52,127 nt of DNA from Desulfurivibrionaceae bacterium (GTDB lineage: Bacteria > Desulfobacterota > Desulfobulbia > Desulfobulbales > UBA5123): assembly GCA_030145325.1 (NCBI GenBank), contig JAQYVW010000016.1, positions 1 through 52,127 of the forward strand. The letters are read 5' to 3'. The translations under genes and the position numbers were made by a program. The notes beneath the pieces were generated by a model, which made no database searches, was not told the DNA's origin, and worked only from the letters and a program-made list of their open reading frames with translations. Below, piece after piece: positions 4,744 through 34,229 of the stretch. Numbering within the stretch: position 1 is the first letter of the stretch; each line of letters begins with the position of its first letter.

Positions 4744-7542
4744 ATGACGAAAACTGAGTCACAAACCCGCGTCGAGCTGATAGATAAACAGCTGGCGAGG
4801 TCTGGTTGGAATGTCAAAGACCCCACGCAAGTGGTGGAGGAGTATGACATCCAGGTGGGGCTCCCGGTTGGTGTTGCTGAGCCTCGTACTCCCTACGAAG
4901 GTCACCAGTTCAGTGATTATGTTTTGTTGGGTAAAGACCGCAAACCGCTCGCCGTTGTTGAAGCCAAGAAGTCTAGCAGAGATGCCGCCATTGGCCGCGA
5001 ACAAGCCAAGCAATACTGTCACAACATCCAGAAGCAACTCGGCGGTGAACTGCCGTTCTGCTTTTATACCAACGGCCTCGACACCTATTTCTGGGATCTG
5101 GACAACTATCCGCCGCTCAAGGTCGTGGGTTTCCCCACCCGCGATGATCTCGAACGTTTTCAATACATCCGCCGCAACCGCAAACCGCTTACTCAAGAAC
5201 TGATTAACACCTCTATCGCAGGCCGCGATTATCAGATTCGTGCTATCCGGGCAGTGCTGGAAGGGATCGAAAAAAAGAAACGTGATTTCCTGCTGGTAAT
5301 GGCCACCGGCACCGGAAAAACCCGGACCTGTATTGCCATGGTGGATGCGTTGATGCGCGCCGGTCATGCCGAAAAAGTACTTTTCCTGGTAGACCGCATA
5401 GCCCTCCGGGAGCAGGCGTTGGACGCTTTTAAGGAACACCTGCCCCATGAGCCGCGCTGGCCCAACAAAGGCGAAAAACTCATCGCCAAGGATCGCCGTA
5501 TCTATGTATCCACCTATCCCACCATGCTCAATATTATCCGGGATGAGTCACAGTACCTCTCTCCGCACTTTTTCGATTTAATCGTCATCGACGAGAGTCA
5601 CCGTTCCATCTATAATACCTACGGAGAAGTACTCGATTATTTCAAAACCATCACCCTGGGCCTTACCGCCACGCCCACCGATATTATCGACCACAACACC
5701 TTCAAGCTTTTTTACTGCGAGGATGGACTCCCTACCTTCGCCTATACCTTCGAGGAGGCGGTCAACAATGTGCCGCCTTACCTGAATAGTTTCCAGGTAA
5801 TGAAAATCCAGACCAAGTTCCAAAAGGAAGGCATCAGCAAACGTACAATCTCCCTGGAAGACCAGAAAAAGATGATTCTGGAAGGCAAGGAAGTCGCAGA
5901 GATCAACTTCGAGGGCTCGCAGCTGGAAAAGAAGGTCATCAACAAAGGCACCAACACCTTGATCGTCAAGGAATACATGGAAGAGTGCATCAAGGATCCC
6001 AACGGTGTACTGCCCGGCAAGACTATCTTTTTCTGCTCCTCAAAGGCACATGCCAGGCGCATGGAAGAAATTTTCGACAAACTCTACCCACAACACAACG
6101 GCGAACTGGCCAAGGTGCTGGTTTCAGAAGATCCTCGCGTCTACGGAAAAGGTGGGTTGCTCGACCAATTCACCAATAATGATATGCCTCGGGTGGCTCT
6201 CAGTGTGGATATGCTCGATACCGGCATCGACGTGCGTGAGATCGTAAACCTGGTCTTTGCCAAGCCGGTATATTCCTATACCAAGTTCTGGCAGATGATC
6301 GGGCGCGGCACCCGTCTCCTGGAAGCCGCTAAACCAAAACCATGGTGCACCGAAAAGGATGTCTTCCTTATCCTGGATTGCTGGGACAACTTCGAATATT
6401 TCAAGCTCAAGCCCAAGGGTAAGGAACTGAAACCGCAACTGCCTTTACCGGTGCGTTTGGTCGGCCTGCGCCTCGATAAAATTGAAAAGGCTCATGATAG
6501 CGGCCACCAAGAGATTGCCGAGCGCGAAATCGTTAAACTCCGAAAACAAATTGCCGACTTGCCGCCCGGTTCCGTAGTAATCAAAGAGGCTGCCACCGCC
6601 TTGCATCGCCTTGAAGAAGAAAACTTTTGGATCACTCTCAGTCATCAGAAATTGGAATTTCTGCGCGCAGAGATTAAACCTTTGTTCCGCACGGTCTCGG
6701 AAGCTGATTTCAAAGCGATGCGTTTCGAAAAAGACCTGTTGGAATTCTCCCTGGCTCGCTTGAACGAAAACAAAGAACAAGCCGAGACCTTGAAAGACGG
6801 CTTAGTCGAGCAGATCAGCGAACTGCCTCTCAGTATCAACTTTGTAAAGGCCGAAGAATCGTTGATTCGGGCCGCCCAAACCAATCACTACTGGGCCAAG
6901 ATCGACGAAGACGCCCTGGATGAACTGACCGAAAAACTCGGCCACCTGATGAAGTTCCGCGAGCAAGACACCGGCCCCGGCCCGACCAACCTCGATCTGA
7001 CCGATACCTTGCACCACAAAGATTGGGTGGAATTTGGCCCACAGCACGAAGCCGTCAGTATTTCACGCTACCGGGAAATGGTGGAGGCCCTGATCGTTGA
7101 ATTAACCGAACACAATCTCATTCTGGAGAAGATCAAGAACGGCCAGCAGGTCAGCCCGGTTGAAGCCGACGAATTAGCCGAACTGCTCCACTCGGAACAT
7201 CCGCACATCACTGAAAACTTGCTCCGCCAGGCTTACAGAAATCGCAAGGCCCGCTTCATTCAGTTTATCCGTCATATTCTCGGCATCGAAATACTGAAAA
7301 GCTTCCCGGAAACAGTGGCCGAAGCCTTCGACCGGTTTATTCAACAACACACCAACCTTTCCAGTCGACAGTTGGAGTTCCTCAACCTGTTGAAGAACTT
7401 CATCATCGACCGTGAAAAGGTAGAAAAGAAGGATCTGATCAACGCCCCCTTCACCGTGATCCATCCCCAAGGGATCCGTGGCGTTTTCAGCCCGTCCGAA
7501 ATTAACGAAATATTGCTCCTCACGGAGAAACTGGCAGCGTAA
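4744..7542 (+). CDS. hsdR: Type I restriction endonuclease subunit R (EcoEI-like)
   Basis: The 932-residue protein combines an N-terminal PD-(D/E)XK nuclease (Asp58, then Glu73-Ala-Lys75 in VVEAKK) with a superfamily 2 helicase motor: Walker A ATGTGKT (187-193), DESH (283-286), LTATP (307-311), and motif VI QMIGRGTR near residue 517. A helical C-terminal part follows. HsdR translocates DNA with ATP and cleaves far from the recognition site in complex with HsdM and HsdS. The size and the RDYQIRAIR entry to the motor fit the EcoEI (type IB-like) subgroup. All motifs are present, so it should be active. It is the first gene of the defence block, 40 bases ahead of hsdM. Confidence 0.95.
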   Translation: MTKTESQTRVELIDKQLARSGWNVKDPTQVVEEYDIQVGLPVGVAEPRTPYEGHQFSDYVLLGKDRKPLAVVEAKKSSRDAAIGREQAKQYCHNIQKQLGGELPFCFYTNGLDTYFWDLDNYPPLKVVGFPTRDDLERFQYIRRNRKPLTQELINTSIAGRDYQIRAIRAVLEGIEKKKRDFLLVMATGTGKTRTCIAMVDALMRAGHAEKVLFLVDRIALREQALDAFKEHLPHEPRWPNKGEKLIAKDRRIYVSTYPTMLNIIRDESQYLSPHFFDLIVIDESHRSIYNTYGEVLDYFKTITLGLTATPTDIIDHNTFKLFYCEDGLPTFAYTFEEAVNNVPPYLNSFQVMKIQTKFQKEGISKRTISLEDQKKMILEGKEVAEINFEGSQLEKKVINKGTNTLIVKEYMEECIKDPNGVLPGKTIFFCSSKAHARRMEEIFDKLYPQHNGELAKVLVSEDPRVYGKGGLLDQFTNNDMPRVALSVDMLDTGIDVREIVNLVFAKPVYSYTKFWQMIGRGTRLLEAAKPKPWCTEKDVFLILDCWDNFEYFKLKPKGKELKPQLPLPVRLVGLRLDKIEKAHDSGHQEIAEREIVKLRKQIADLPPGSVVIKEAATALHRLEEENFWITLSHQKLEFLRAEIKPLFRTVSEADFKAMRFEKDLLEFSLARLNENKEQAETLKDGLVEQISELPLSINFVKAEESLIRAAQTNHYWAKIDEDALDELTEKLGHLMKFREQDTGPGPTNLDLTDTLHHKDWVEFGPQHEAVSISRYREMVEALIVELTEHNLILEKIKNGQQVSPVEADELAELLHSEHPHITENLLRQAYRNRKARFIQFIRHILGIEILKSFPETVAEAFDRFIQQHTNLSSRQLEFLNLLKNFIIDREKVEKKDLINAPFTVIHPQGIRGVFSPSEINEILLLTEKLAA

Positions 7543-7582
7543 AGCGCCAGCCCATTAGCCGCAAAACCAAGAGATTTAAACA

Positions 7583-9259
7583 ATGCTGCAAAACAACCCT
7601 GAATTGAAAAGTAAAATAGATCAACTCTGGAACAAGTTCTGGAGTGGCGGCATCTCTAACCCGCTTACAGCTATCGAGCAGATTACCTACCTGTTGTTTA
7701 TGAAGCAGCTGGACGAGTTGGATCATAAAAAGCAGGCCGATGCCGACTTTACCGGCGAGGGCTATACGCCAAAGTTCAAAGGGACTTGGATTCCGCCGGA
7801 ACACCGGGATAAATCAGAAAACGATCAAAAGCCCTTTGCCATCGAAAGACGCACATTGCGTTGGAGCGAATTTAAACATTTCCATGCCGAGGAGATGCTC
7901 CAGCATGTGCAGAATAAGGTCTTTCCCTTTCTCAAAGATCTCAACGGCTCGCAATCCAACTTCACCCACCACATGAAGAACGCGGTATTCATCATCCCCA
8001 AACCTGCTCTGCTGGTGGAGGCGGTGAAAACCATCGACGAAATTTTCAAAGTGATGGAGAAAGACTCCCAAGAAAAAGGCCATGCCTTTCAGGATATCCA
8101 AGGCGATGTCTATGAAATGCTGCTGTCGGAGATCGCCAGCGCTGGTAAAAACGGCCAGTTCCGCACCCCGCGTCACATCATCAAACTGATGGCCGAGCTG
8201 GTGCAGCCGAAGCTGGGCCACCGCATTGCCGACCCGGCTTGTGGTTCCGGAGGTTTCCTGTTGGGAGGCTACCAATATATTGTCACCCAACTGGCCCTGA
8301 AACACGGTGCAAAAGATCTGACCGCCGATGAAGACGGCTTCCTGCGAACCTCCATTTCAGCCGGGCTCAACGAAAAGACCCAGGCGATTCTCAACAACTC
8401 CTTATTCGGCTACGATATCGACAGTACCATGGTGCGCCTGGGGCTAATGAACCTGATGATGCACGGCATCGACGAGCCGATGATCGATTACAAGGACACC
8501 CTGAGCAAGAGCTTCACCGAGGAATCCGAGTACGACATCGTCATGGCCAACCCGCCCTTTACCGGCAACATCGACAAGGGCGATATCAACGAAAATTTGT
8601 CACTCTCTACCACCAAGACCGAACTGCTCTTTGTCGAAAACATCTATCGTCTTCTGAAAAAAGGCGGCACCGCTTGCGTTATCGTGCCACAAGGGGTGCT
8701 CTTCGGCTCCGGCAAGGCCTTCAAAAATCTGCGTCAATTACTGGTGGAGCGCTGTGACCTCAAGGCCGTGGTTAGCATGCCCAGCGGCGTATTCAAACCC
8801 TATGCAGGGGTCAGTACCGCCATTCTGCTCTTCACCAAGGTCTGGGGCCCCAAGGACAAGGTTAGTCAACCGGCCACGGAGCATGTCTGGTTTTATGAGA
8901 TGACAGCCGACGGCTATTCCCTGGATGACAAACGTACCAAGCAGGAGGGATATGGCGACCTGCAGGATATTGTTGCTAAGTATCACGCCCGCAATCCTGA
9001 AACCGACACCGATCGCAAGATTACGGAAGAAAAAAAATGTTTCTGTGTTCCCCGCGCCGAGATCGAGGCTGAGGGCTATGACCTCTCTATGAGCCGCTAC
9101 AGGGAGGATGTCTTTGAAGAGGTTGTCTATGAAGCCCCAGCGCTGATTCTGGACAAACTGCTGAAGGCAGAAGTGGGCGACGTAAAAGAGGAGGATCTGG
9201 CTACGATCCGGAGCGGTATCGTGCGGGAGTTGCTGGAGCTGCGGGGGATGATTGAATGA
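7583..9259 (+). CDS. hsdM: Type I restriction-modification DNA methyltransferase subunit M
   Basis: This 558-residue protein has an N-terminal helical domain of the HsdM_N type (start to about 170) and an N6-adenine methyltransferase domain with the AdoMet-binding DPACGSGGF motif near residues 217-225 and catalytic NPPF near 323-326. HsdM pairs with HsdS to methylate adenine at the bipartite target and protect host DNA. Both key motifs are intact. The start at 7583 follows hsdR closely. The stop overlaps the rhuM start by four bases (ATGA, 9256-9259), so the two are translationally coupled. Confidence 0.95.
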   Translation: MLQNNPELKSKIDQLWNKFWSGGISNPLTAIEQITYLLFMKQLDELDHKKQADADFTGEGYTPKFKGTWIPPEHRDKSENDQKPFAIERRTLRWSEFKHFHAEEMLQHVQNKVFPFLKDLNGSQSNFTHHMKNAVFIIPKPALLVEAVKTIDEIFKVMEKDSQEKGHAFQDIQGDVYEMLLSEIASAGKNGQFRTPRHIIKLMAELVQPKLGHRIADPACGSGGFLLGGYQYIVTQLALKHGAKDLTADEDGFLRTSISAGLNEKTQAILNNSLFGYDIDSTMVRLGLMNLMMHGIDEPMIDYKDTLSKSFTEESEYDIVMANPPFTGNIDKGDINENLSLSTTKTELLFVENIYRLLKKGGTACVIVPQGVLFGSGKAFKNLRQLLVERCDLKAVVSMPSGVFKPYAGVSTAILLFTKVWGPKDKVSQPATEHVWFYEMTADGYSLDDKRTKQEGYGDLQDIVAKYHARNPETDTDRKITEEKKCFCVPRAEIEAEGYDLSMSRYREDVFEEVVYEAPALILDKLLKAEVGDVKEEDLATIRSGIVRELLELRGMIE

Positions 9260-10314
9260 CCGGGCAGGACTACGAAAAACACGGAATGGAATTATCCAAG
9301 GGTGAAATGCTCGTCTACCAAACCGACGATGGCCGGATCAAACTGGATGTCCAGCTCCAGGACGAAACGGTCTGGTTGACCCAGGCGAATCTGGCGGATT
9401 TGTTTCTGGTCAAGCCCCAGAACATCACCATGCACCTGAAGAACATCTATGCGGAAGGAGAATTGGCGGAAAAGGCAACTTGTAAGGAATTCTTACAAGT
9501 TCAAAAGGAGGGTAATCGTCAGGTAGAACGGAGCAGAAAATTCTATAATCTAGATGCGATTATTTCGGTGGGCTATCGGATCCAGTCGCAGGTAGCCACC
9601 CGCTTCCGAATCTGGGCCACCCAGCGGTTGAAGGAGTACCTGGTCAAAGGCTTCACCATGGACGATGAACGCCTCAAGGAATCTGGCAACAGCCGCTACT
9701 TTGAGGAGCTGCTGGCCCGTATCCGCGACATCCGGTCCTCGGAAAAGATCTTCTGGCGCAAGGTGCTCGATATCTACGCCACCAGCATCGACTACGATCC
9801 CCACCCCGAAAGCTCGCAACTCTTTTTCAAGCAGGTACAGAACCAGATGCACTGGGCCGCCCATGGCCACACCGCCGCCGAGTTGATCTATAGCCGCGCC
9901 GATGCCGGTCAGCCCAACATGGGGGTGACCAACCATCCCAGCCATAAGCTGCTGAAACGGGACGTGGAAGTGGCCAAGAACTACCTGAACGAAGAGGAGT
10001 TGAATATCCTCAACCGGATGGTGACTGCCTATCTCGAAATGGCGGAGTTACAGGCCTTGAATCGCACCCCGATGACCATGGAGGACTGGGCTGAACGTCT
10101 GCATCAGTTCCTGACCATGACCGGCCGGGAACTGCTGACCCACGCCGGGACGATCAGCCATGATTCGGCCATGGACAAGGCCCATGCCGAATATGAGAAA
10201 TTTCGTTTGCATCAACTGGAAGAACCCACCGAGGTGGAAAAACATTTTGTCGAGGCTGAGGAAGAGTTGAAGCGGATTGAGAAGGGACGGACACGGGGTG
10301 ATGTGGATGAATAA
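9256..10314 (+). CDS. RhuM family protein (virulence-RhuM domain) embedded in the type I locus
   Basis: The 352-residue sequence shows the features of RhuM proteins: an N-terminal part with DETVWLTQANLADLF and ITMHLKNIYAEGEL resembling a winged helix, then RKFYNLDAIISVGYRIQS and FRIWATQRLKEYLVKGF, then a helical C-terminal half. RhuM genes are commonly carried between hsdM and hsdS; their molecular role is not established, and the name comes from a Salmonella pathogenicity-island gene. Methionines at 9256 and 9286 are both possible starts; 9256 gives the ATGA overlap with hsdM. No nuclease or methylase motif is visible. Confidence 0.85.
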   Translation: MTGQDYEKHGMELSKGEMLVYQTDDGRIKLDVQLQDETVWLTQANLADLFLVKPQNITMHLKNIYAEGELAEKATCKEFLQVQKEGNRQVERSRKFYNLDAIISVGYRIQSQVATRFRIWATQRLKEYLVKGFTMDDERLKESGNSRYFEELLARIRDIRSSEKIFWRKVLDIYATSIDYDPHPESSQLFFKQVQNQMHWAAHGHTAAELIYSRADAGQPNMGVTNHPSHKLLKRDVEVAKNYLNEEELNILNRMVTAYLEMAELQALNRTPMTMEDWAERLHQFLTMTGRELLTHAGTISHDSAMDKAHAEYEKFRLHQLEEPTEVEKHFVEAEEELKRIEKGRTRGDVDE

Positions 10315-10395
10315 ACACGGAAGGCACGAAAAGCTTTGGATTGGTGCAAGGGGTGGAGTTGTGCGGGAGTTGCTTGCTTGGCTGGGGATAATTTG

Positions 10396-12027
10396 ATGAT
10401 ACTTACAACAAAAGCTATTGGGGAACTGTCTCAGTACATTAGAACGGGCAAGACCCCCCCCACGAAAAATGATGCTTACTTTAACGGGGAGATAGCTTGG
10501 TATACACCAGGAGATCTAGATGGGACTATTTTTGTCGAAGAGTCATCAAGGACATTAACAACATTGGCACTTGAAGATCGTAAAGCCGTCCTCTTTGAAA
10601 AAAATACTGTCCTCCTGTCGTGCATAGGAGATATTGGAAAAGTTGGACTAATATCTAAACCAGCAAGTTCGAATCAGCAAATTACAGGTATTAAACTTTG
10701 TAAAGAAATTGACCCGCTATTCTTTGTTCTATGGTGTAAAAAGCACAAAAAATTACTTGAGAGTAAAGCGAAAAAAGCTGTAGTTCCTATCTTAAACAAT
10801 AGCATTTTGTCAGGAATTAAAATTTCTTTCCCGGAGGAGCTCGACGACCAAAAGCGCATTGCCCATCTGCTCGGCAAGGTGGAAGGGCTGATCGCCCGGC
10901 GCAAACAACACCTGCAACAACTGGACGACCTGCTCAAAAGCGTCTTTCTGGAGATGTTCGGCGACCCGGTACGGAATGAGAAGGGATGGGATTCATCCCC
11001 CTGCACAGAGGTTGTTTTAGATATACAGTCGGGCACCAGTTACGGTGGCGAAGAAAAAAATGTTTTGGACAGTGATGATTTAGGTGTTCTCAAAATAAGC
11101 GCAGTGACCCAAGGTTTTTTTAATCCCAAAGAGTTCAAAGCGGTCAAGAAATCCATTATCAAAAGGCCTCCGAGATTGGTGCGAAAGGGGGACTTTCTTT
11201 TTAGTCGAGCAAATACAATAGAATTAGTGGCAGCCTGCTGCATAGTGGATTCCGATTATCCATATCTTTTTCTTCCTGATAAGCTGTGGGTCTTTACTTT
11301 GGCTGAATTTGTTGCGCCGCAATATTTAAATTTTTTGCTGAAAAATGAGAATTTCCGCAACCAAATCAGGAAGAAAGCAAGTGGTGGGCATGATTCAATG
11401 TTGAATATTTCCATGAAGAAGTTTCGGTCATTGGTTATCCCTGTGCCGCTTAGAACCCTCCAAAATCAATTCGCCGACATCGTTGAAAAAGTCGAGAGCG
11501 TCAAATCCAGATACCAGCAAAGCCTTACCGAACTGGAAAACCTCTATGGATCCTTAAGCCAGAAGGCATTCAAGGGCGAGCTGGATTTGTCCCAGGTGGT
11601 TGTACCCATAGAACAGGCGGAAATCACGGAAGAGGTGGAACCCCCTGCAACGGCTATCACTGAAACAGATTCCAAACCATCCATTGAGTTGCCAGCGCCG
11701 GATAGCCTTGGCAGTTTTTTCCATGCCAAAGGCCGCAAGGCTCTAATAGGTCAATGGCTTGAAGCCTACCTTGGACAATCTGGGAACACGTCTTTCTCCG
11801 CTCAGCATTTTATGGAGACAGCCCAGCAAAGGATGTTGGAGTTGCTGGACGATCAAGATCAAGAGCCTGAATCGTCCCTCACCGTGGATTATGAATTTTT
11901 TCAGTTTGGTTCGGCAGGTTATGACCAACTCAAGGAGTTGGTCTTTCAGGCGTTGGCAAGCGGTCGCCTGACACAGGTCTATGACGACGCCGGGAACCGC
12001 GTGCAGATCCTCGCGGCCAGGGGGTGA
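10396..12027 (+). CDS. hsdS: Type I restriction-modification specificity subunit S
   Basis: From the ATG at 10396, preceded by GGGGATA, the protein is 543 residues. It has two target recognition domains (about 1-150 and 200-360), each followed by a helical spacer: QKRIAHLLGKVEGLIARRKQ in the middle and QNQFADIVEKVESVKSRYQQ near residue 365. About 130 further residues after the usual end (KAFKGEL) include a Pro/Glu-rich linker and a compact tail. HsdS sets the bipartite DNA target of the complex. The recognition domains are visibly AT-richer than the spacers and neighbouring genes, the pattern expected when such domains are exchanged. The frame is open upstream of 10396 but lacks a good start. 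Confidence 0.92.
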   Translation: MILTTKAIGELSQYIRTGKTPPTKNDAYFNGEIAWYTPGDLDGTIFVEESSRTLTTLALEDRKAVLFEKNTVLLSCIGDIGKVGLISKPASSNQQITGIKLCKEIDPLFFVLWCKKHKKLLESKAKKAVVPILNNSILSGIKISFPEELDDQKRIAHLLGKVEGLIARRKQHLQQLDDLLKSVFLEMFGDPVRNEKGWDSSPCTEVVLDIQSGTSYGGEEKNVLDSDDLGVLKISAVTQGFFNPKEFKAVKKSIIKRPPRLVRKGDFLFSRANTIELVAACCIVDSDYPYLFLPDKLWVFTLAEFVAPQYLNFLLKNENFRNQIRKKASGGHDSMLNISMKKFRSLVIPVPLRTLQNQFADIVEKVESVKSRYQQSLTELENLYGSLSQKAFKGELDLSQVVVPIEQAEITEEVEPPATAITETDSKPSIELPAPDSLGSFFHAKGRKALIGQWLEAYLGQSGNTSFSAQHFMETAQQRMLELLDDQDQEPESSLTVDYEFFQFGSAGYDQLKELVFQALASGRLTQVYDDAGNRVQILAARG

Positions 12028-12033
12028 TGACGC

Positions 12034-13827
12034 GTGAAGCTGTTGCGCCTGAAAATTACCGATCCGAAAGGTTTTCGCAGCCTGCAAGCGGGCTTCGAGC
12101 ACTACTTCCGTACACCTTGGTCAATCGACAATGAGTTGCGGGGAGGAGAAGGCTTTGCGCCGTTTGTCTGCGCTGGCCCCAACGGCAGCGGCAAGTCGAA
12201 TCTGCTGGAGGTGCTGGCGGCGATTTTCTATCACATGGAGTGCATGTATCTCGAAAACCTGCCGGATAGCTTTCTCTATGACGAGCGGGATAATCCAAAT
12301 GGCTTTACCAGCGATAGAGGTATTCCAGATGGCTTTGAAATCGAATATCTCATTCAGGCAAAAGATGCCCTAAAGGTTAAGGGTTTGAATGGGCAAGCCC
12401 ATGTCAAAATCGTTAAAGGTTCAGGAGAAACGCCAAAGTGGTTTTTGCTCAACCATGAAGACCACGACGGCGAGGTGGAGATGACCATCGGTCAAACCCT
12501 TGGACGCCAGCTTTTGCCGGAATACATTCTGGGTTATTCCTCCGGCGAAAATGAAATCCTCAGCCTGCCGTTTTTCAAAATGCGCTTTATCCAATTTGAT
12601 GAATACTGGCAGGCATTGAAAAACCAATTGCCGTATCCGGGGCGGCCGGAAACCAGACTGGCCTATCTTGACAGCGGTTTTAGTCAGGCGATTCTACTCT
12701 GCAATCTGCTGTTCCAGGCCGCGGACACCCTGAAGCCGTTCCAAGAGGATGTCGGAGTTGAGGATCTAAAGGAATTTCGCCTCATTATCCGGCGCAGCAT
12801 TAAAATTGAAGAGAACCAAATCCAGGAGTTCGGTAGTCAGAACCAATTCAAGCGCGAGACAGTCGAGGAGATTGTCAAAAACAATCCGGCACTCATTGAG
12901 ACGAACTCCGAGGACGGGGAGAAACGCTATCGGGTCAACCTGATGGAGCTTCTGGAGGGTGCCGATAAATCAGACAAACTAGTCAGCCGCCTAAAACGCT
13001 GCGCCACCTGTGCCTATGTGGATGATGCCACTGATACCCTCTATCTCGACTATTTTGTCAACGAGGCAACAAGACGAGCCTTCAAAGAGAACTTCGAGCA
13101 ATCGCCCATCGCCCTCTTTCAGGCCTTCCAGGTTTTGCTGACCCTCAATCTCTACTCCGTCAGCGAGGCGCTGAAGGACGACCTCTACCAATCTGACAGC
13201 CACTATGTCAGCGAAACCGTGCCGACATTGGCCTCGGATGAACGTATCATGCGTTTCAAGTTTGTGAAGTTCACCAAGGTAGGCGTTGAGCAACCGGTGA
13301 CGCTCAAGGGCCTCTCCGATGGTGAGCATCAACTCCTGCACACCCTCGGCCTCTGCCTGCTGTTCAAAAACACCAACAGCCTGTTTCTACTCGACGAGCC
13401 GGAAACCCACTTCAATCCTGACTGGCGCTCGAACTTTGTCACCCGTCTGCACCAGTGTTTCGAGGGCTCGGACGATACCCATGAAATGCTGGTCACAACC
13501 CACACCCCTTTTCTGATCTCCGACAGCAAACCTGATAAGGTGCTGGTTTTCAAAAAAGACAAAAAAACCAGGGTAATCAGCGTCAACGAGCCGGGTTACA
13601 ATACCCTAGGGGCGTCTATCAACAAGATCACCATGAACACTTTCGGCAAGCGTGAAACCATCGGTGGTCATGCCAAGGCAATTCTTGAGAAGTTCAGGGA
13701 GCGTTCAAAAGATGATCATGAGGATAAAGAACAACTCCTCGTCGAGATCAACCACCGGCTGGGCGACTCAGTGGAAAAGGTGCTGCTGATCAAGACCATC
13801 CTTGACAGCATGGAGACCAAGGGCTGA
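12034..13827 (+). CDS. Restriction-system-associated AAA/ABC-type ATPase (PtuA-like)
   Basis: This 597-residue protein starts at GTG 12034, six bases after hsdS. It has an ABC-ATPase head of the SMC/RecF/OLD type: Walker A GPNGSGKS (48-55), a signature-like LKGLSDGEHQLL near residue 425, Walker B FLLDEPETHFN (Asp454-Glu455) and a switch THTPF (His490). The central part is mostly helical. There is no Toprim domain, so it is not an OLD nuclease by itself. Paired with the overlapping HNH gene it matches the two-gene arrangement of Septu (PtuA ATPase plus PtuB nuclease). The assignment as a Septu relative is inferred from domains and order; similar ATPases are annotated next to restriction loci. 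Confidence 0.85.
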   Translation: MKLLRLKITDPKGFRSLQAGFEHYFRTPWSIDNELRGGEGFAPFVCAGPNGSGKSNLLEVLAAIFYHMECMYLENLPDSFLYDERDNPNGFTSDRGIPDGFEIEYLIQAKDALKVKGLNGQAHVKIVKGSGETPKWFLLNHEDHDGEVEMTIGQTLGRQLLPEYILGYSSGENEILSLPFFKMRFIQFDEYWQALKNQLPYPGRPETRLAYLDSGFSQAILLCNLLFQAADTLKPFQEDVGVEDLKEFRLIIRRSIKIEENQIQEFGSQNQFKRETVEEIVKNNPALIETNSEDGEKRYRVNLMELLEGADKSDKLVSRLKRCATCAYVDDATDTLYLDYFVNEATRRAFKENFEQSPIALFQAFQVLLTLNLYSVSEALKDDLYQSDSHYVSETVPTLASDERIMRFKFVKFTKVGVEQPVTLKGLSDGEHQLLHTLGLCLLFKNTNSLFLLDEPETHFNPDWRSNFVTRLHQCFEGSDDTHEMLVTTHTPFLISDSKPDKVLVFKKDKKTRVISVNEPGYNTLGASINKITMNTFGKRETIGGHAKAILEKFRERSKDDHEDKEQLLVEINHRLGDSVEKVLLIKTILDSMETKG

Positions 13828-14927
13828 TGTTGTTCCCATACTCATATGTTCCTCACCAGATGGAGAGAATGCAGGAGTTTATTGACTTCATTTTTTATGA
13901 GGTATGGTGCGATGCTCCCGACAGCGGCCCGTACAGTATTGATTTGTTTGATGGCAATACTGAGCTTAGGGATTTAATAGTATCTTTCCATTATTCAGAA
14001 GCAAAAGGGGCGTATTTCTTTAATGGCCAAGTAGAGCGCATTTACAGTTGTTTCGCCGTGCTGACCCCGACACAGATCGATCAGCTTCAGCAATGGTATC
14101 AGGCCAATAATGACATCGAAAAAGTTTGTGCCAATGACCCGGCTACGCACATTGCCCGCTATGCCGATATCCTTGTTGTGCACCAGGAACTAGGTGAGCA
14201 GCTCGCCGTTTTTTTCAAAGGACTTTATTCACAGCAATTAATTGGCCTTGCCGCGCTGCGGCAGAAGATCGGCGATATCGACGAACACTACAAAGCATTC
14301 ATGGGCGCGAACAAGACAGGTAAGTGTCCATTTTGCGGCATTGCTGACATGCAGGGCGTCTACCACTCAACCCGAGAAGCCTACGACCACTATCTGCCCA
14401 AAGGGCTCTATCCGTTTAATTCGATCAATTTCCGCAACCTCGTTCCGGCGTGTCATCATTGTAACAGCAGCTACAAGACCAGCAAAGACCCCGCATATAT
14501 GCCGAAAGACCCGGCAGGGTCAACAGATCGTAGGAAAGTTTTCTATCCCTACGCAAATCCTGCTCACAACATAGAAGTGACAATTGAGTTCAACAAGCCG
14601 GACGTCGACCACCTCGCACCTGATGATATACAGATTTCCTTCGGACCACCTGCCTTAAACGAGGAAATCGAAACATGGAAGGATGTGTATGGTATCGAGG
14701 AAAGGTACCGAGGGAAATTGCTAGATGGTGATGGGAAGGCGTGGCTCGCAGAAGTTTTAGATGAATGGAGATGGAAGGATGACAGTGCGGGAAAAGAAGG
14801 TCGGGGTCCTGATGAATACCTCCGGGATCTAGATCGGCATACGACAAAGTCCCCATTCACCGGCACCAACTTTCTTAAGAAGGCCTTTTTGGATGGCTGT
14901 CAAAAAGTAGGGTTGTTTGATGAATAA
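13827..14927 (+). CDS. HNH endonuclease (PtuB-like), partner of the ATPase
   Basis: The 366-residue protein has a zinc-supported HNH domain: CPFC (167-170), DHYLPKGLYPF (from 187, with His188 the likely catalytic base), then NLVPACHHCNSSYK (Cys209 and Cys212). About 165 residues precede the HNH domain and have no recognised motif, which seems long for a PtuB-type protein. The start overlaps the ATPase stop by one base (TGATG), a strong sign of co-translation. HNH nucleases of this context cut DNA or RNA once the ATPase senses infection; the target here is unknown. Domain call is firm; the Septu label is an inference. Confidence 0.85.
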   Translation: MLFPYSYVPHQMERMQEFIDFIFYEVWCDAPDSGPYSIDLFDGNTELRDLIVSFHYSEAKGAYFFNGQVERIYSCFAVLTPTQIDQLQQWYQANNDIEKVCANDPATHIARYADILVVHQELGEQLAVFFKGLYSQQLIGLAALRQKIGDIDEHYKAFMGANKTGKCPFCGIADMQGVYHSTREAYDHYLPKGLYPFNSINFRNLVPACHHCNSSYKTSKDPAYMPKDPAGSTDRRKVFYPYANPAHNIEVTIEFNKPDVDHLAPDDIQISFGPPALNEEIETWKDVYGIEERYRGKLLDGDGKAWLAEVLDEWRWKDDSAGKEGRGPDEYLRDLDRHTTKSPFTGTNFLKKAFLDGCQKVGLFDE

Positions 14928-14969
14928 GCTCGAGATCCATCTTTTCTCCTTTATATTAAGGCTTAAACC

Positions 14970-15842
14970 ATGAACGAATCACATCCATTCTCAATCAAAA
15001 TTTTCGTCGCCAACGGTGATCCGGACGGGTTACGGGTTATTGAACGATCAAACTGGAACGGCAGGGCCTTGGTCTTTCCTCGCACACTTCTGCCGGAAGT
15101 AAAGACGCGAGAGGAGTTCGGGCGCACTGGAGTCTATCTATTGCTTGGCCCCCAAGAGGACGGAGAAGGCGAGCTTCTCTATATTGGTGAAGGTGATCCG
15201 GTAAGACCCAGGTTTGAAAGCCATTTTACTCAGAAGGACTTTTGGAATCGCGGCGTCTTCTTCGTTACTGGCCAAGAGGGAGCATTAAATAAGGCCCACG
15301 TACAATATCTTGAGGCGCGGCTGGTCGAACTGGCAAATGCAGCCAAGCGCATGACTCTTGATAATCAGAATAAACCGAATCGGCCCTCCCTCAACGAAGC
15401 CGATCAGGCCGACTTAGAGGTGTTTCTGGATCACATGCTCCAGATCCTCCCTTTGCTGGGGATTTCTGCCTTCGAGAAACCCACCTCGAACAAGAGCAGC
15501 AAGAAAAGCCATCTCTTCGCCCAGGCCAAAGGGCTAAAAGCTGAAGGTTATGAGTCCACCAGTGGCTTCGTTGTTTGCCAAGGATCTCAAGCTGCCCTCG
15601 AATCCGTACCCTCCATGAAAAATCACATTCGTGGCGTGTACGATCTGCGAGAGAGACTCATAGCCTCCGGTGTTTTAGCTCAAAAAGAGAAGTGCTATCA
15701 GTTTACCCAAGACTATAGCTTCAGTTCGCCATCCACGGCAGCGGCAGTCGTTATGGGACGAAGCGCCAATGGCCGGTTAGAGTGGAAAGACAAGTCCGGG
15801 CGTACGCTCAAATTAATTCAGGAAGAGTTGGCAGGTGGGTAA
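14970..15842 (+). CDS. GIY-YIG nuclease-fold protein with C-terminal DUF4357
   Basis: The 290-residue protein has a GIY-YIG core at about 52-125: GVYLLLG (54-60), YIGEG (71-75), Arg81 and a downstream Glu (Glu115 in YLEARL). The first motif is GVY and the second YIG, a common variant. The C-terminal part from about 245, with AAVVMGRSANGRLEWKD and an RTLKLIQEEL ending, matches DUF4357. GIY-YIG/DUF4357 proteins are frequent in restriction islands, but their role is not settled. It lies 42 bases after the HNH gene on the same strand and is the last gene of the block. The catalytic residues appear present, so nuclease activity is plausible. Confidence 0.85.
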   Translation: MNESHPFSIKIFVANGDPDGLRVIERSNWNGRALVFPRTLLPEVKTREEFGRTGVYLLLGPQEDGEGELLYIGEGDPVRPRFESHFTQKDFWNRGVFFVTGQEGALNKAHVQYLEARLVELANAAKRMTLDNQNKPNRPSLNEADQADLEVFLDHMLQILPLLGISAFEKPTSNKSSKKSHLFAQAKGLKAEGYESTSGFVVCQGSQAALESVPSMKNHIRGVYDLRERLIASGVLAQKEKCYQFTQDYSFSSPSTAAAVVMGRSANGRLEWKDKSGRTLKLIQEELAGG

Positions 15843-26566: not shown

Positions 26567-27661
26567 ATGGACGTGCCTGATCAAGAAGAAGCAAGCAGCA
26601 TTCGTGATAACATTGCCCGTAATTGGCCCCACCTTCGGCGGCGACTGGCTGTTCTCCTGACTTTTTTTCTTCTCCTCTCTCTGGTTCTCTGTGCCTATTT
26701 ATTCAATAGTATTTTCATTAATATCTACCCTGGCGAGGCAGGCGTTCTCTGGAAACGTTTCCACGGTGGTACAGATATGGAGTACGTTTATGATGAGGGC
26801 CTCCACGTCATCCCGCCTTGGAACAAGATGTATATCTACGACACCCGTATCCAGCATCGGCCTTTTCAATTCAAGGCTCTTTCAAAGGATGGCCTGCCGA
26901 TCACCTTCGAGGTCTCGGTGCGCTTCTTCCCCGATCGGGAGCATCTTCCCCAGCTGCATAAATTAGTCGGTCCTGACTATATTCTTAAGGTGGTAAAGCC
27001 CGAGGTTCAGGCCCATCTCCGTAAGGTGGTGGCCAACTACCTGCCGGAGGAGATCTATACCTCTGAGGGGTATCTGCTCCAGATCATCATGCAAGGGGCC
27101 ATGGGGGCCTTTGCCGAAAAATATATCAATCTTGATAATCTGCTCATTCGCAGGATGATTCTTCCCAAGACCATAGTTGAGGCCATAGAACATAAATTGG
27201 CTCGGCAACAGCATGTTCAGGAGTATACTTACCGCCTGCAGATTGCAGAAAAAGAGGCGCTGCGCAAGGCTATTGAGGCCGAAGGGATCAAGCGTTTTCA
27301 GGATATTGTCAAGTCCAGTGGTTTCTTCGATAAGTACCTTCAGTACAAGGGGATCGATGCCACCGTGGATCTTGCCAAATCCGACAATGCCAAGGTGGTG
27401 GTCATCGGTGGTGGCGACGGTAAGCTTCCTCTGATTATGAACATGGCCTCAACCCCGGCCCCTACAATTCCGGCCCTTCCTCCGGTGGCAAGTACCATGA
27501 AAAAGTCCGGCCCGGTTTCGCCGCCAACCCTCAAGGCCAAAGTAAAGCAGGCGGGAGTATTGGAACCGGAAAGTTCGTTTTTTTCCAGACTACAGAGTTA
27601 CCTGCGCCGAGGTAGTGCGCAGCTAACTCCCCCCGCGCCACCATCCCCCGGCAAGGAATAG
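26567..27661 (+). CDS. SPFH/band 7 (prohibitin-like) membrane protein
   Basis: The 364-residue protein has a basic N-terminus, one transmembrane anchor (LLTFFLLLSLVLCAYLF, about 29-45), then an SPFH domain with YPGEAGVLWKRFHGGT, DEGLHVIPPWNKMYIYDTR and SKDGLPITFEVSVRF. A helical region rich in Glu and Lys (about 205-250) follows, and a Pro-rich tail ends the protein. SPFH proteins form large membrane-bound oligomers that organise or protect membrane complexes. It is the first gene of a three-gene run, six bases ahead of the lipoprotein gene and then an ABC exporter. That setting suggests a scaffold role for those products. Confidence 0.88.
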   Translation: MDVPDQEEASSIRDNIARNWPHLRRRLAVLLTFFLLLSLVLCAYLFNSIFINIYPGEAGVLWKRFHGGTDMEYVYDEGLHVIPPWNKMYIYDTRIQHRPFQFKALSKDGLPITFEVSVRFFPDREHLPQLHKLVGPDYILKVVKPEVQAHLRKVVANYLPEEIYTSEGYLLQIIMQGAMGAFAEKYINLDNLLIRRMILPKTIVEAIEHKLARQQHVQEYTYRLQIAEKEALRKAIEAEGIKRFQDIVKSSGFFDKYLQYKGIDATVDLAKSDNAKVVVIGGGDGKLPLIMNMASTPAPTIPALPPVASTMKKSGPVSPPTLKAKVKQAGVLEPESSFFSRLQSYLRRGSAQLTPPAPPSPGKE

Positions 27662-27667
27662 CAGCAG

Positions 27668-28912
27668 ATGAGACAGTTTCAGAGAGTTGTTTTCCTCATC
27701 ATTGCCATGGTTCTCCTGATCATGAGCGGTTGTAACAACAAAACCTCGGTCAGTGAGATTGATAGCACTAGCTGGGCAGAGCAAATCAAGATAGCCAAGG
27801 TGGAATTCACTCCCGCCAAGCGGTTGGAGGTTATCACTTGGCACGACTACGTACCCCAGGAGGTCTTGGACCTCTTCACAAAGACATATGGCACCCAAAT
27901 AGTGCCGACTCTGATCAGCAGTAACGAGGAGATGTTCGATCTCCTTCGGAAAAACCCCAGCAAATATGATCTTGTCATGCCCTCTGACTATATGGTCATC
28001 AAGATGCTCAAGGCCGGTTTGTTGCGCCGACTTGAGCATGGCAACATTCCGAACATGGATTTGCTTGACGAAGACGTCCGTCGGCTAAGCTATGATCGGG
28101 GTCTCCTTTACACGGTTCCTCTCTCTCGCGATTGCATCGGTATCGCTTTTAACATCAAATACGTGGCTGGCATTCCTCGGAACTGGGGATTTATCATCGA
28201 ACAGCTTCGTAACGATTATCTTGCGTATCGGGGTGGGATCAGAAAGGAAATGCGCGTTGCCTTGGGGCTGGCTCTCATGCTTCGCGGCTACTCGCCTAAC
28301 ACCATTGACCCTGGGCAGATTGGTGAGGCTCGTGACCTGCTTATCGATACCATCAAGCGCCACGGGCTTAAGCTCACCGGCCCGCAAGGGGGGCGGCAGT
28401 TGATAAATAATAAAATCCTCCTCGGTTTGGTCTGGAACGGTACCGGTGCCTACGCTTTGGCCAATAATCCCGATGTTAGATTCTTGCTTCCCGAGGGTAA
28501 GGCGCTTGTCAATTATGATAGTATTGCCATCAGTGTCGAGAGTCAGCGGGCGCGAACAGCGGAACTCTTCATCGATTATATGTTGATTCCACAAGTTTCG
28601 GCGCGAATGAGCAACTATAATTATTTTGCCGGCTGTAACTCCGCCGCGTTGCCCTATGTCGAGAAGATTATTCGTAACGGGCCTGGCTTTATGTTTCCTG
28701 ATGAAGAGGATCGCCTGTTCTTGAAAGACCTGGGGGCAAATATCAAGCTCTATGAAGATGCCTGGAACCTGGTATTGCAAACCAAGACTCCAGATTCCTT
28801 GGTCGAGCTCCCTCTGCCCAAGGACGGGATCTTTAAGGGTGATACCCGGGGTGCTAATTTTACAAAAAAATTCATCGAAGAGATGGAAAAACCGAAGAAT
28901 GACAGCCCGTGA
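27668..28912 (+). CDS. PotD/PotF-like extracellular solute-binding lipoprotein
   Basis: This 414-residue protein begins with a lipoprotein signal, LLIMSGC, with lipidation at Cys22. The mature part matches polyamine-binding proteins of the PotD type: VITWHDYVPQEVLDLFTKTYG, KYDLVMPSDYMVIKM, and LYTVPLSRDCIGIAFN. Such proteins normally feed a PotABC importer, but no PotB/PotC permease is nearby. Instead the next gene overlaps by four bases (GTGA) and encodes an exporter-type ABC protein. About 75 residues between the lipobox and the binding domain are unusual for PotD. The ligand is unknown; a sensor or adaptor role is possible. Confidence 0.85.
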   Translation: MRQFQRVVFLIIAMVLLIMSGCNNKTSVSEIDSTSWAEQIKIAKVEFTPAKRLEVITWHDYVPQEVLDLFTKTYGTQIVPTLISSNEEMFDLLRKNPSKYDLVMPSDYMVIKMLKAGLLRRLEHGNIPNMDLLDEDVRRLSYDRGLLYTVPLSRDCIGIAFNIKYVAGIPRNWGFIIEQLRNDYLAYRGGIRKEMRVALGLALMLRGYSPNTIDPGQIGEARDLLIDTIKRHGLKLTGPQGGRQLINNKILLGLVWNGTGAYALANNPDVRFLLPEGKALVNYDSIAISVESQRARTAELFIDYMLIPQVSARMSNYNYFAGCNSAALPYVEKIIRNGPGFMFPDEEDRLFLKDLGANIKLYEDAWNLVLQTKTPDSLVELPLPKDGIFKGDTRGANFTKKFIEEMEKPKNDSP

Positions 28913-30567
28913 AAAACTATTTTCAATTTGTTAAAACAGAGGCTGGTCGGCTCAACCGAACCATGGTTTTGATGACGGTCACCGCCGGTATTGCCAACGG
29001 TCTGGCCGTTGCCACCGCCATCCAAACTGCCGCTAAGCTCAAGCCGGGAAGTCTTCATTTTAGTTCTTTTTTCCTCTTTGCCTCCTTGATGGGCCTGTTC
29101 TGGTTCTGCAAGCGTTATTCGATGAACGAAAGTACCAAGATGGTGGAAGAGGTGGTGCGTATCATCCGTCTTCGTATCCTGGGTAAGCTGAAAACCACCG
29201 ATCTCCTCGGTCTTGAGTCCATCGACAAGGGAATCTTCTATTCTGCGCTGGCCACTGACGCGGCAACTATTTCCTATTCAACCACTATTGCGGTTAATGC
29301 TGTTTCTTCGATGATCATGCTCACCTTCATCATTATTTATATCGGCGTGATGTCCTTCAAGGCTCTACTGGTAAGCGTCGGCATCGTCGGCCTGATGATT
29401 ATGCTCTACCTGCGCAACGAAAAACAGATTGCTGATTCCTTACAGAAATCAGCGGTTTGCGAAAACACCTTTATGGATAATTTGGGAGGGCTGCTCAACG
29501 GCTTTAAGGAGCTGAAGATGAACCGGCGCAAATACCAGGATTTCAGCCAGGGTGAACTTGATTCGGTGATCAATTCCTCCACCGATCTGCGCATCGACGC
29601 CGGGCTCAGGTTGAATGTCACCATCCTTCTCTCCCAGACCTTTCTTCTCCTTTCCATCGGCGGCATTCTTTTTTTGTTGCCCCAGATCGATAAAAGCGAG
29701 ATCCCGATCATCCCCAAGCTCATCGCGCTTATTATCTTCACCGCCGGTCCCATCGGTGATTTTGCCATGGCCATTCCGGCAGTCTCCCGGGCCGAAGCAG
29801 CGATCAATAATATTCGCAGCCTGGAGGAGCTTATCGACCAGGGCCAAAGTAAGAACGAACTGATCAGTGACGAGCAGGCCATCGAAGAGATGGCTTGGAG
29901 TAAGATAAACCTGGATGATATTTTCTTTCAGTTTCCTATTAAGGAAAACGGTCGAACTTTCAATATTGGGCCGATTGAATTGGAATTCCATCAGGGTGAA
30001 ATTACCTTTATTGTTGGCGGTAACGGCTCTGGGAAATCGACCTTTCTTAAGGTTCTCACCAGTCTCTACACCCCAAACCGTGGTCACATTCGTTTGGATG
30101 ACACCGAGGTTACGCCATACAACCGGGCCAGTTATCGCAATCTTTTCTCCACCATTTTTACTGATTACTATCTCTTCAAACGGCTCATCGGTATTGATCA
30201 ACCAGACTCCGAACTTGTCCGCAATCTTCTCTCCCAGATGGAATTGGCTGACAAGACCTCCATTGAAAACGGGGTGATTACCAACCGTGACCTTTCCACT
30301 GGTCAGAAAAAAAGGCTCACCCTGATCATCAGCGTCCTGGAGGACAAGCCGATCATGCTCTTTGACGAATGGGCCGCAGATCAAGATCCGGTCTTCCGCA
30401 AATTTTTCTATGATGTCCTCTTGCCGGAATTGAAGGCCAAAGGTAAGACCATCATCGCCGTCACCCACGACGACAACTATTTCTATGCCGCTGATCGGAT
30501 CTACAAGATGGAGTATGGCCGTTGTCTGCCTTACGACTACCGTGCTCAACAAAGACGCGAAAAATAG
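28909..30567 (+). CDS. Cyclic-peptide-type ABC exporter (SyrD/PvdE family), fused membrane and ATPase domains
   Basis: The 552-residue half-transporter starts at GTG 28909, inside the stop of the lipoprotein gene. A six-helix membrane domain (about 1-310) precedes the nucleotide-binding domain: Walker A VGGNGSGKST (near 368-377), signature LSTGQKKRL (near 462, the LSxGQ variant typical of SyrD/PvdE), Walker B IMLFDEWAADQDP (near 481) and a His switch in VTHDD. The family exports cyclic peptides and pyoverdine-type intermediates. No peptide synthetase is in the window, though a type II thioesterase faces this gene at 30712. Substrate unknown. The protein would act as a homodimer in the inner membrane. 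Confidence 0.9.
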   Translation: MKNYFQFVKTEAGRLNRTMVLMTVTAGIANGLAVATAIQTAAKLKPGSLHFSSFFLFASLMGLFWFCKRYSMNESTKMVEEVVRIIRLRILGKLKTTDLLGLESIDKGIFYSALATDAATISYSTTIAVNAVSSMIMLTFIIIYIGVMSFKALLVSVGIVGLMIMLYLRNEKQIADSLQKSAVCENTFMDNLGGLLNGFKELKMNRRKYQDFSQGELDSVINSSTDLRIDAGLRLNVTILLSQTFLLLSIGGILFLLPQIDKSEIPIIPKLIALIIFTAGPIGDFAMAIPAVSRAEAAINNIRSLEELIDQGQSKNELISDEQAIEEMAWSKINLDDIFFQFPIKENGRTFNIGPIELEFHQGEITFIVGGNGSGKSTFLKVLTSLYTPNRGHIRLDDTEVTPYNRASYRNLFSTIFTDYYLFKRLIGIDQPDSELVRNLLSQMELADKTSIENGVITNRDLSTGQKKRLTLIISVLEDKPIMLFDEWAADQDPVFRKFFYDVLLPELKAKGKTIIAVTHDDNYFYAADRIYKMEYGRCLPYDYRAQQRREK

Positions 30568-30711: not shown

Positions 30712-31395
30712 CTACGCCTCCAGTTCCTCTCTGAGGCAGCAGGTGATTTCGGCGATGGAGTCGAAAAGAAAAAAATGACCGCCATTGAAGGCATGGGATT
30801 GGAAAGTTTCGTTGGTCTCTGCCTGCCAGGAGTTTGCCTCTTCTTTGCTCATGTCGTCCCGACCGTAAAGAACCGTGATGGGAACTGGTTGTGGGGTGGG
30901 TTGGGGTGCGTATCCTTCCACGGCCTGGAAATCAAAACGCAACAGCTCTTCGAAATAATCCATCAACTCCGAAGAGTCCAGGAGCTGGGCAGGTACGCCG
31001 CCGTAACTGGTAACCGCCTGCCAGAATTCCTTGCCGGAAAGGTGGGCAATGGGTGCGGTTCTGCGAGACTGGGGCGCGGCGGTGCCGGAGACAAAAAGAT
31101 GCACCGGCATCGGTATTCTTTGGTGCCGACATTGATCGCAGATGGCATGGGCCAGCAATGCCCCCATGCTGTGGCCAAAAAGAGCCCATGGGGTTGTGCT
31201 GGATGGTGCCATGCGGTGGAGAAGATCCTTGGCCAGGGATTGCATGTCTGTCAGGGGATTTTCCCCGGCGCGGACACCGTGTCCCGGTAGGTCGAGACAG
31301 CAGACCTCCAGGTCTGGAGCCAGGGCCTCGGCCAAGGGGTGGTAGGCGTATGATGCCCCACCGGCATGGGGCAAGAGATACAGGGTTGTTTTCAT
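30712..31395 (-). CDS. Type II thioesterase (alpha/beta hydrolase, NRPS/PKS editing type)
   Basis: The ATG at 31395, preceded by AAGGAAGGA, gives 227 residues; an upstream in-frame start would add eight. The sequence opens LYLLPHAGGASYAYHPLAEA, with DLPGHG at 35-40, nucleophile elbow GHSMG (Ser76), acid region LYGRDD near 180, and the His of NGGHFFLFD near 210. This is the layout of GrsT/SrfAD-like thioesterases that clear mis-primed carrier proteins of peptide or polyketide synthetases. No such synthetase occurs here, but the gene converges on a cyclic-peptide-type ABC exporter 144 bases away. Catalytic triad appears complete. Confidence 0.9.
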   Translation of the reverse strand: MKTTLYLLPHAGGASYAYHPLAEALAPDLEVCCLDLPGHGVRAGENPLTDMQSLAKDLLHRMAPSSTTPWALFGHSMGALLAHAICDQCRHQRIPMPVHLFVSGTAAPQSRRTAPIAHLSGKEFWQAVTSYGGVPAQLLDSSELMDYFEELLRFDFQAVEGYAPQPTPQPVPITVLYGRDDMSKEEANSWQAETNETFQSHAFNGGHFFLFDSIAEITCCLREELEA

Positions 31396-31953
31396 AGTCC
31401 TTCCTTTTTGCAGCCCCATTGGGTTTCTGGCGCCTAGAAAAAGCAGGCCGAATAACCGGGAAACATCTCTACTTTGTCAAGTGGGGGGGGCAGGGGCCGA
31501 TCCTGGAAACGCCAGACGCATAACCCTTGCCAATAGCCTTTATCATAGGGCATGTCGAGTAAATGTTCATATTTTTGAGGATATAAAATTCCGTTGGTGG
31601 ATTGTTGACTCGAAGTTTTTAAAGAGTTCGTCCATAGATGGCTGTGGTTACAATTTGAAGCCGCTGTGGACCATGACTGTTAATGTGGGTAATAAAAAGA
31701 ACAACGATGATTAACCTCCCGAAATGGCCGCTTCCCTGAACGCATGCGGCAGACAGGCATTCTTGTTGTTTAGAAGCTTACCCTAGCGTTTTTTAGGTAG
31801 GAAATATGCGGGGGTATTTTTAGATGACTCATTTGTCTGAACAGGCTGAAACTGTAGGGTAATCTTGGTCTTCCGGTAAGGTCTTCGTTATGGAAGATGT
31901 GACGTATCTCAATAAAACTTCGCAAAAACAAAAAACTACCAACTTATTAACCC
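31396..31953. other. Intergenic stretch upstream of the DUF697 gene
   Basis: About 560 bases with no gene I can support. A 77-codon frame at 31481-31714 lacks a ribosome binding site and protein-like composition. The promoter of the thioesterase must lie in its left part; none is clear. Confidence 0.45.
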
Positions 31954-31982: not shown

Positions 31983-32073
31983 ATATTAATTTTCATTTCA
32001 ATATAGAGATAAGGTGCATCTTGGCACATCCGGCTGGGACACTACAGAATAATCGTAAATGGAGGGCAGAACC

Positions 32074-32613
32074 GTGAGCGCCACACAAAAAAACGAGAAG
32101 GTTAAGGACGCGGAGGTTGCAGTCGAGGAGGTTGTAGTCGAGGAGGTGGAAGTTCTGTCCACCATTGACCAGGCAGACAAAATTACCCGTCAGTTCGTAC
32201 TTTGGAGTGCTGGTGGCGGTTTGATCCCGGTTCCCTTTGTGGACATTGCCGCTGTTTATGCTGCCCAGGTAACCATGGTCACCAAGATGAGCAAGGTGTA
32301 CGGGATTCCTTTTTCCGAGCACAAGTTTAAGAATGTTCTGATGCCACTCTTTGGTACCTTGGGGATTGTGCCAGCAGCCACCGGAATCCTTGCTTCGGCC
32401 ATTAAAGTCATTCCCGGCATTGGTAATCTGGTCAGTTCTCTCAGTCTGCCGGTGATGGCCGGGGCCATCACCTACGCCACGGGCTCAATTTTCGCTTCCC
32501 ACTTTGAGGCGGGCGGCACTTTGCTCGATTTCAATCCAGAAAAAATGAAGGAGCATTACAAGAAGCTCTTTGCCGAGGGCAAAAACGTAGCCAAAGACGC
32601 GGCCAGCGCATAG
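32074..32613 (+). CDS. DUF697-type membrane-associated protein
   Basis: I place the start at GTG 32074 because GGAGGG lies 8 bases upstream; an ATG at 32059 would overlap that site. The 179-residue product has an acidic Val/Glu-rich N-terminus (about 10-30) and then a DUF697-like domain with FVLWSAGGGLIPVPFVDIAAVYAAQ, a Gly/Ala-rich hydrophobic region (VPAATGILASAIKVIPGIGNL) and TYATGSIFASHFEAGG. DUF697 occurs in YcjF-type inner-membrane proteins, often tied to GTPases or stress regulons. No GTPase is adjacent. A small membrane protein follows nine bases later, probably in the same transcript. Confidence 0.8.
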   Translation: MSATQKNEKVKDAEVAVEEVVVEEVEVLSTIDQADKITRQFVLWSAGGGLIPVPFVDIAAVYAAQVTMVTKMSKVYGIPFSEHKFKNVLMPLFGTLGIVPAATGILASAIKVIPGIGNLVSSLSLPVMAGAITYATGSIFASHFEAGGTLLDFNPEKMKEHYKKLFAEGKNVAKDAASA

Positions 32614-33623: not shown

Positions 33624-34229
33624 ATGGGACTTTTATCCGGTTCGGCAACCTTTGTCCGCTATACGGTTGAAGGTGAGTTGCCAGCCAATTTTTGGGATTT
33701 TGCCGCCGAACGCCTCGCTTCATTTTCCTTTCGTGACATCGACGACTCCTACGAGGAGCGGTCTGTGGGCTGGGTGTCGGTTCTCAATATGTTCGACAAC
33801 ACTTTTGAATATGCCTCCTACGCTGCTGGTGATAATGTTGTCCTTACCTTGCGGGTGGATGAGCGCAAGATTTCCAATGCCGCTTTGAAGAAATTTACAG
33901 CCAAGGAAGAGGAACGGATCAAAAAGGAGCGGCAAGTGCCTAAGCTTGCTCGCAACCACCGTTTGGAGATCAAGGATAACATGAAGTTGATGCTCACCAA
34001 GCGGGCGGTGCCGATTCCGGCGGTGTATGACCTCTGCTGGAACCTTTCTGAAGGCACCTTGCTCTTTTTCTCCACCAATAAAAAAGCGCAGGAGGTGCTT
34101 GAGGAATATTTCAAGGAAACCTTCGGTCTGCAGTTGATGTTGCAGATTCCTTATCTCACCGCCGGTCATTTGCTTGACGAGGCTGGTGAAGAGCGGCTGG
34201 CTAATATCACCCCATCGATTTTTGTCTAA
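33624..34229 (+). CDS. RdgC-like recombination-associated protein (short form)
   Basis: The 201-residue protein begins MGLLSGSATFVRYTVEGELP, continues with SFRDIDDSYEERSVGWVSVLNM and LRVDERKISNAALKKF, and later has AVYDLCWNLSEGTLLFFSTN. This is the pattern of the short RdgC-like proteins of delta-proteobacteria; enterobacterial RdgC is about 300 residues. RdgC binds double-stranded DNA as a ring and modulates RecA. The short form's activity is inferred. The gene sits nine bases ahead of a 177-residue partner and upstream of gatB, radC and radA. Confidence 0.78.
   Translation: MGLLSGSATFVRYTVEGELPANFWDFAAERLASFSFRDIDDSYEERSVGWVSVLNMFDNTFEYASYAAGDNVVLTLRVDERKISNAALKKFTAKEEERIKKERQVPKLARNHRLEIKDNMKLMLTKRAVPIPAVYDLCWNLSEGTLLFFSTNKKAQEVLEEYFKETFGLQLMLQIPYLTAGHLLDEAGEERLANITPSIFV

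Follow-up and report, generated by a model that had tools for sequence, protein, structure and literature searches.

A probable natural-product export module combining an ABC exporter, a prohibitin-type SPFH protein and a tethered binding protein in a Desulfurivibrionaceae bacterium

The window analysed here is the whole of contig C15 (52,127 bases), taken from a genome that is 97.8% complete in 168 contigs. In it, the gene for a PotD-like lipoprotein lies between genes for an SPFH protein and an ABC exporter. Binding proteins usually serve as import receptors, and the question is what such a protein might do beside an exporter. The three genes are tightly packed, with 6 bases between the SPFH and lipoprotein genes and a 4-base GTGA overlap shared by the lipoprotein and exporter genes; the open reading frames, strand, spacing and order given in an earlier note on this DNA were exact on re-check. 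The trio that it described is real, and what it overlooked is the link to NRPS/PKS genes together with two more genes of the set, for a thioesterase and a DUF697 protein (Table 1).

Table 1. Genes of the putative export module in the window
Product	Position	Strand	Features
Prohibitin-type SPFH/Band_7 protein	26567..27661	+	364 aa; one N-terminal transmembrane helix; SPFH domain ~residues 53-230
PotD-like (SBP_bac_8) periplasmic binding protein	27668..28912	+	lipobox MSG-C; C-terminal extension ~40 residues
TIGR01194-type ABC exporter	28909..30567	+	552 aa; GTG start; fused transmembrane and ATPase domains
Type II (external) thioesterase, NRPS/PKS accessory type	30712..31419	-	PF00975 E=8e-40
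DUF697 (PF05128), small membrane-hairpin-like protein	32059..32613	+	E=1.3e-12

Recurrence of the gene set

The thioesterase and DUF697 genes are counted as part of the set because both recur in relatives. Roughly half of the related modules have the thioesterase, and the DUF697 protein of the window is 73% identical to that adjoining the same trio in two other genomes (G518 and G434). Exporter, module-type SPFH and DUF697, the combination used to recognize a module, occur together in the window. Elsewhere on the contig, positions 4744-15842 hold a type I restriction-modification island in a single run (HsdR, HsdM, a RhuM-family protein, HsdS, an AAA ATPase and a DUF4357 protein), and just upstream of gatB, positions 33624-34229 encode a 201-aa protein that matches RdgC in part, with a 177-aa protein without a Pfam family coming next.

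Conservation was surveyed in a phylum sample of 395 genomes (exporter counted at E<=1e-60, SPFH subfamily at at least 188 bits) and a class sample of 258 genomes searched with the exporter. A close exporter was detected in 10 genomes of the phylum sample, nine of which have the exporter and SPFH genes side by side on one contig. The module-type SPFH protein occurs in 11 genomes, that is, in 10/10 with the exporter and 1/385 of the others (Fisher p=5e-19, with relatives not independent and kinship uncorrected). For both samples together, SPFH lies within 2.5 kb of the exporter in 14 of 17 exporter genomes, and 13 of these 14 also have a gene with a binding-protein fold; the exporters of G471, G537 and G213 have no adjacent SPFH. 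On contig C52 of the last genome (L114:2256-6559), DUF697 and SPFH are found with a 914-aa fusion of Peripla_BP_6 and SBP_bac_5, with no exporter adjoining. Pairwise identities of exporter and SPFH are correlated across 21 loci (r=0.93, Mantel p=0.0005), across 16 pruned loci (r=0.85) and across 12 loci at one per family (r=0.47, p=0.006), a correlation to which common host descent can contribute.

Three genomes of the same taxonomic order, in two families (G518, G448 and G434), have SPFH, PotD-like protein and exporter in the gene order of the window, with DUF697 beside them. Identities to the window proteins are 63-71% for SPFH, 55-57% for the binding protein and 74-80% for the exporter. The binding-protein query had missed these orthologs because they lie outside the phylum sample, and it was the exporter query against the class sample that brought them up; in the phylum sample that query returned only ordinary PotDs with at most 33% identity and no exporter within a 1.5 kb flank. 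In all three genomes ~100-330 bases separate the exporter from a large NRPS/PKS gene; the window itself showed no NRPS/PKS within ~20 kb of the trio or anywhere in the 52-kb contig. Two more genomes (G520 and G602) combine exporter, SPFH, DUF697 and NRPS/PKS with another type of binding protein; G602 adds a phosphopantetheinyl transferase identified by Pfam, and G520 an ORF similar by look only.

Exporter, SPFH partner and biosynthetic neighbours

The exporter matches TIGR01194, the cyclic peptide export ABC transporter family, with 321.1 bits over positions 17-546 (curated NCBIfam cut-off 286.2), which bears out the type first assigned to it. A tree of exporters places PvdE, YojI and the siderophore-linked exporters in a clade of their own (100% support), all of them without SPFH, and the SPFH-linked exporters fall outside it together with a few that lack SPFH; one sequence with 34 stops (G471a) was disregarded. 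On a Vibrio harveyi plasmid (L118), genes for a solute-binding protein and for two subunits of a permease come directly after a TIGR01194 exporter, so that export and import genes form one run.

The SPFH protein has a Pfam Band_7 match above cut-off (E=2.8e-26, 93 bits), and its nearest solved relatives are prohibitins (E=5.6e-19). A hydrophobic stretch at about residues 28-47, read from the translation, marks the N-terminal membrane anchor. Within the phylum sample the module-specific subfamily is sharply bounded, with 11 matches of at least 188 bits and the next match at 142. Since its neighbours are conserved in relatives, the SPFH protein belongs to the same unit as the lipoprotein and exporter, as the earlier note had proposed. 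A role as HflK/HflC was considered and rejected, the genome having a separate tandem Band_7 pair on contig C163 that fits HflK/HflC.

Similar genes are also carried by plasmids. Exporter, prohibitin and DUF697 are found in Skermanella mucosa, Azospirillum brasilense, Azospirillum argentinense, Rhodobacteraceae SC52 and Tistrella mobilis (pTM3), usually with a thioesterase and NRPS or PKS as well, and Caballeronia NK8 has the same genes less tightly grouped; these loci were picked because both genes matched and show breadth, not frequency. On pTM3, thioesterase, prohibitin, exporter and DUF697 adjoin a bimodular NRPS and a PKS/NRPS run. A single CAAX-protease gene is present on the plasmid, ~65 kb away from the module, a position that would suit didK. 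The record is unannotated, but the gene set (type II thioesterase, bimodular NRPS start gene, NRPS/PKS run, CAAX protease) matches the published did genes of the Tistrella mobilis didemnin cluster (PMC10811503), and the locus is therefore very probably that cluster. Assignment to tistrellabactin was dropped, as the tistrellabactin cluster is on plasmid 2. A plasmid of Azospirillum Sp7 has an exporter-SPFH-exporter run (L070:8000-24000) accompanied by genes for an SBP_bac_3 protein, DUF697 and a reductase-like product, and the 35 kb read there contained no recognized NRPS.

The genome of the window has biosynthetic genes of its own. Contig C7 carries AMP-PCP-KS-AT-MT-KR-ACP, then TubC_N-C-A cut at the contig end, with one condensation domain, and contig C40 a PCP-TE end piece; the two could be parts of one short assembly line, which would presumably make the product of the module. 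NRPS/PKS genes adjoin the module in relatives, whereas in the window genome they sit on other contigs of a fragmented MAG, so that an NRPS-type peptide is only a presumed substrate of the window exporter. At the end of contig C125 (L056:2579-3352) there is a radical-SAM protein 57% identical to KamA-like proteins, which in four relatives (G112, G193, G079 and G338) sit between thioesterase and NRPS. Because the contig stops within this gene, parts of the genome's own cluster may lie on more than one contig.

The binding protein and its possible roles

The lipoprotein is PotD-like by SBP_bac_8 (E=2e-7), by the NCBIfam PotD profile (E=9e-30) and by polyamine binders in the PDB (E~1e-31). Its scores of 103.7 and 86.1 bits fall far below the PotD and PotF equivalog cut-offs (582 and 636). 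The C-terminal extension of ~40 residues ('...LPLPKGGFFRGD...NF...') is common to the PotD-like module clade and absent from the ordinary PotDs compared. An AlphaFold prediction from a 3-row alignment had a mean pLDDT of 40 and was discarded.

Among the loci compared, the PotD-like type fills the slot in the window and the three genomes with its gene order. Peripla_BP_6/ANF proteins are found there in G167, G323 and G602, ABC_sub_bind proteins (PF04392), often in two copies, in G112, G193, G079, G338, G300 and G520, SBP_bac_3 on the Azospirillum Sp7 plasmid, and, in G045, a 224-aa lipoprotein that matches no known family. The filling of one position by unrelated families is the strongest clue that the exporter benefits from a periplasmic binding protein. 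It is not essential to exporter and SPFH, since no binding-protein gene was seen in six of seven alpha/betaproteobacterial loci. In several clusters a small secreted protein or lipoprotein (163-224 aa, no Pfam family) is encoded between exporter and SPFH (L050:8829-9319, L110:11596-12099 and L045:5157-5831), and is regarded as a further module part of unknown family.

The conserved set adjoins NRPS/PKS synthesis genes, so the trio probably forms a complex dedicated to the exit of a natural product, and its membership of a natural-product export module is very likely. The reading preferred here, at a probability of roughly 0.55, is that the locus exports an NRPS/PKS product and that the binding protein works with the exporter, in capture and hand-off or in immunity. 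The exporter would carry the finished or nearly finished product over the inner membrane. The SPFH protein, held by one helix, would form a ring or cage at the membrane, where it rather probably brings the exporter and its partners together; DUF697 would be an additional membrane component, and the thioesterase would keep the synthase clean. More tentatively, the tethered binding protein may be an export-side acceptor that receives the product leaving the exporter, prevents its re-entry or damage to the cell and hands it on towards the outer membrane. Bolder still is the suggestion that four unrelated binding-protein families were independently recruited as such acceptors, with an SPFH cage holding ABC exporter and tethered binding protein; if true, the usual import-receptor role of binding proteins would be reversed.

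Immunity or sensing is a less likely role, in which the lipoprotein would sequester product returning to the periplasm or report its level, and would take nothing over from the exporter. This is consistent with a lipoprotein that is tethered, has a divergent pocket and lies next to a natural-product exporter, and also with its absence from some clusters, which would be expected of an optional immunity gene. Three of the four PotD-like module proteins have a lipobox; in the fourth (G518) an uncleaved-looking N-terminal hydrophobic anchor replaces it, so that only tethering is kept. However, the 4-base overlap with the exporter gene, kept in all four PotD-type genomes, and the recruitment of four families at the same place better fit a role tied to the exporter.

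It is improbable that the binding protein recaptures the exported product (e.g., in a metal-loaded form) for a permease elsewhere. Other TIGR01194 exporters do adjoin a solute-binding protein and FhuB siderophore re-import genes, and the Vibrio plasmid offers a similar case with permease subunits. In those cases the permease is alongside, whereas none adjoins the window trio, nor does any TonB receptor or siderophore gene; moreover, the exporters of the re-import cases belong to the clade without SPFH. No PotBC-like permease was found in the window genome, and no second PotD-like protein. All seven of its PF00528 permease domains belong to other systems (Opp, Pst, a molybdate/tungstate-like set and two amino-acid SBP-permease fusions for polar amino acids), each with its own apparent binding protein. 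The pairing of lipoprotein and exporter without an import permease is thus real, and a PotABC set elsewhere that uses the lipoprotein, which the earlier note had named as a possible refutation, is missing from this genome. Among ordinary PotDs, 19 of 29 have a multi-helix neighbour by a crude hydrophobicity rule that is indicative only.

Polyamine binding, with the exporter under polyamine control or itself exporting polyamines, is very improbable, even though polyamine receptors are the nearest solved relatives. The residue numbering and pocket roles used here are those of PotD (E171, W255, W34, Y37, S83, Y85, W229, D257 and D168). The Glu171 equivalent is V/F/F/F in the four module proteins and E/D in 27 of 31 ordinary PotD relatives; the Trp255 equivalent is N/A/T/T, against W in 25 of 31. 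In the window protein E171 is replaced by V, W255 by N and D168 by E, a pocket that departs from the polyamine pattern while W34, Y37, S83, Y85, W229 and D257 are kept. The module clade as a whole keeps four of the five aromatic positions checked (W34, Y37, Y85 and W229 equivalents), plus S83 and D257, and some amine ligand is therefore still possible. The loss of two pocket residues in all four proteins, the lack of a PotBC-like importer, the peptide type of the exporter family and the non-polyamine families in the slot of other lineages all argue against polyamines. From the earlier interpretation, then, exporter type, missing permease and SPFH membership stand, and polyamine sensing falls. 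Chance adjacency of three unrelated genes is scarcely credible: the trio is absent from two same-genus genomes searched, but the identical gene order in three further genomes from two families (where rare co-occurrence would have spoken against the unit), the co-occurrence statistics and the correlated divergence all oppose it.

Relation to known systems

To our knowledge, the exit of large NRPS/PKS products from Gram-negative cells and the function of bacterial prohibitins are both poorly known. The exporter-prohibitin-DUF697 set with a swappable binding protein would offer a concrete link between the two, a marker for natural-product cluster mining and a possible case of binding proteins in export. 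Tistrella mobilis, which probably has the set beside its didemnin genes and in which knock-outs have been made before, is suited to testing SPFH and DUF697.

The open-access literature yielded no account of DUF697 in such modules or of their binding-protein slot, and nothing on SPFH with NRPS or with a cyclic peptide transporter; prohibitin with NRPS gave one paper (PMC12016528). The exporter-prohibitin pair had been noted once and in passing, in Thalassobaculum sp. OXR-137, where it lies beside a 95-kb NRPS/PKS cluster (PMC12016528). That account concerns one genome and mentions no binding protein, DUF697 or wider survey. The Tistrella pTM3 region differs from the window module in that no binding-protein gene was seen there.

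Each part of the module has well-known relatives. The exporter is above the curated cut-off of the family of PvdE, SyrD and YojI, and NRPS genes usually adjoin it in module relatives; the sampled PvdE, YojI and siderophore exporters, unlike it, form their separate clade without SPFH, DUF697 or a tethered binding protein. HflK/HflC and mitochondrial prohibitins share with the module SPFH the arrangement of an SPFH domain after a single N-terminal helix, but the module has a single protein, in a natural-product locus. The spermidine/putrescine receptors PotD and PotF are ~30% identical to the lipoprotein over the core fold, from which it differs in its two lost pocket residues, its C-terminal extension and its partner, an exporter in place of PotABC.
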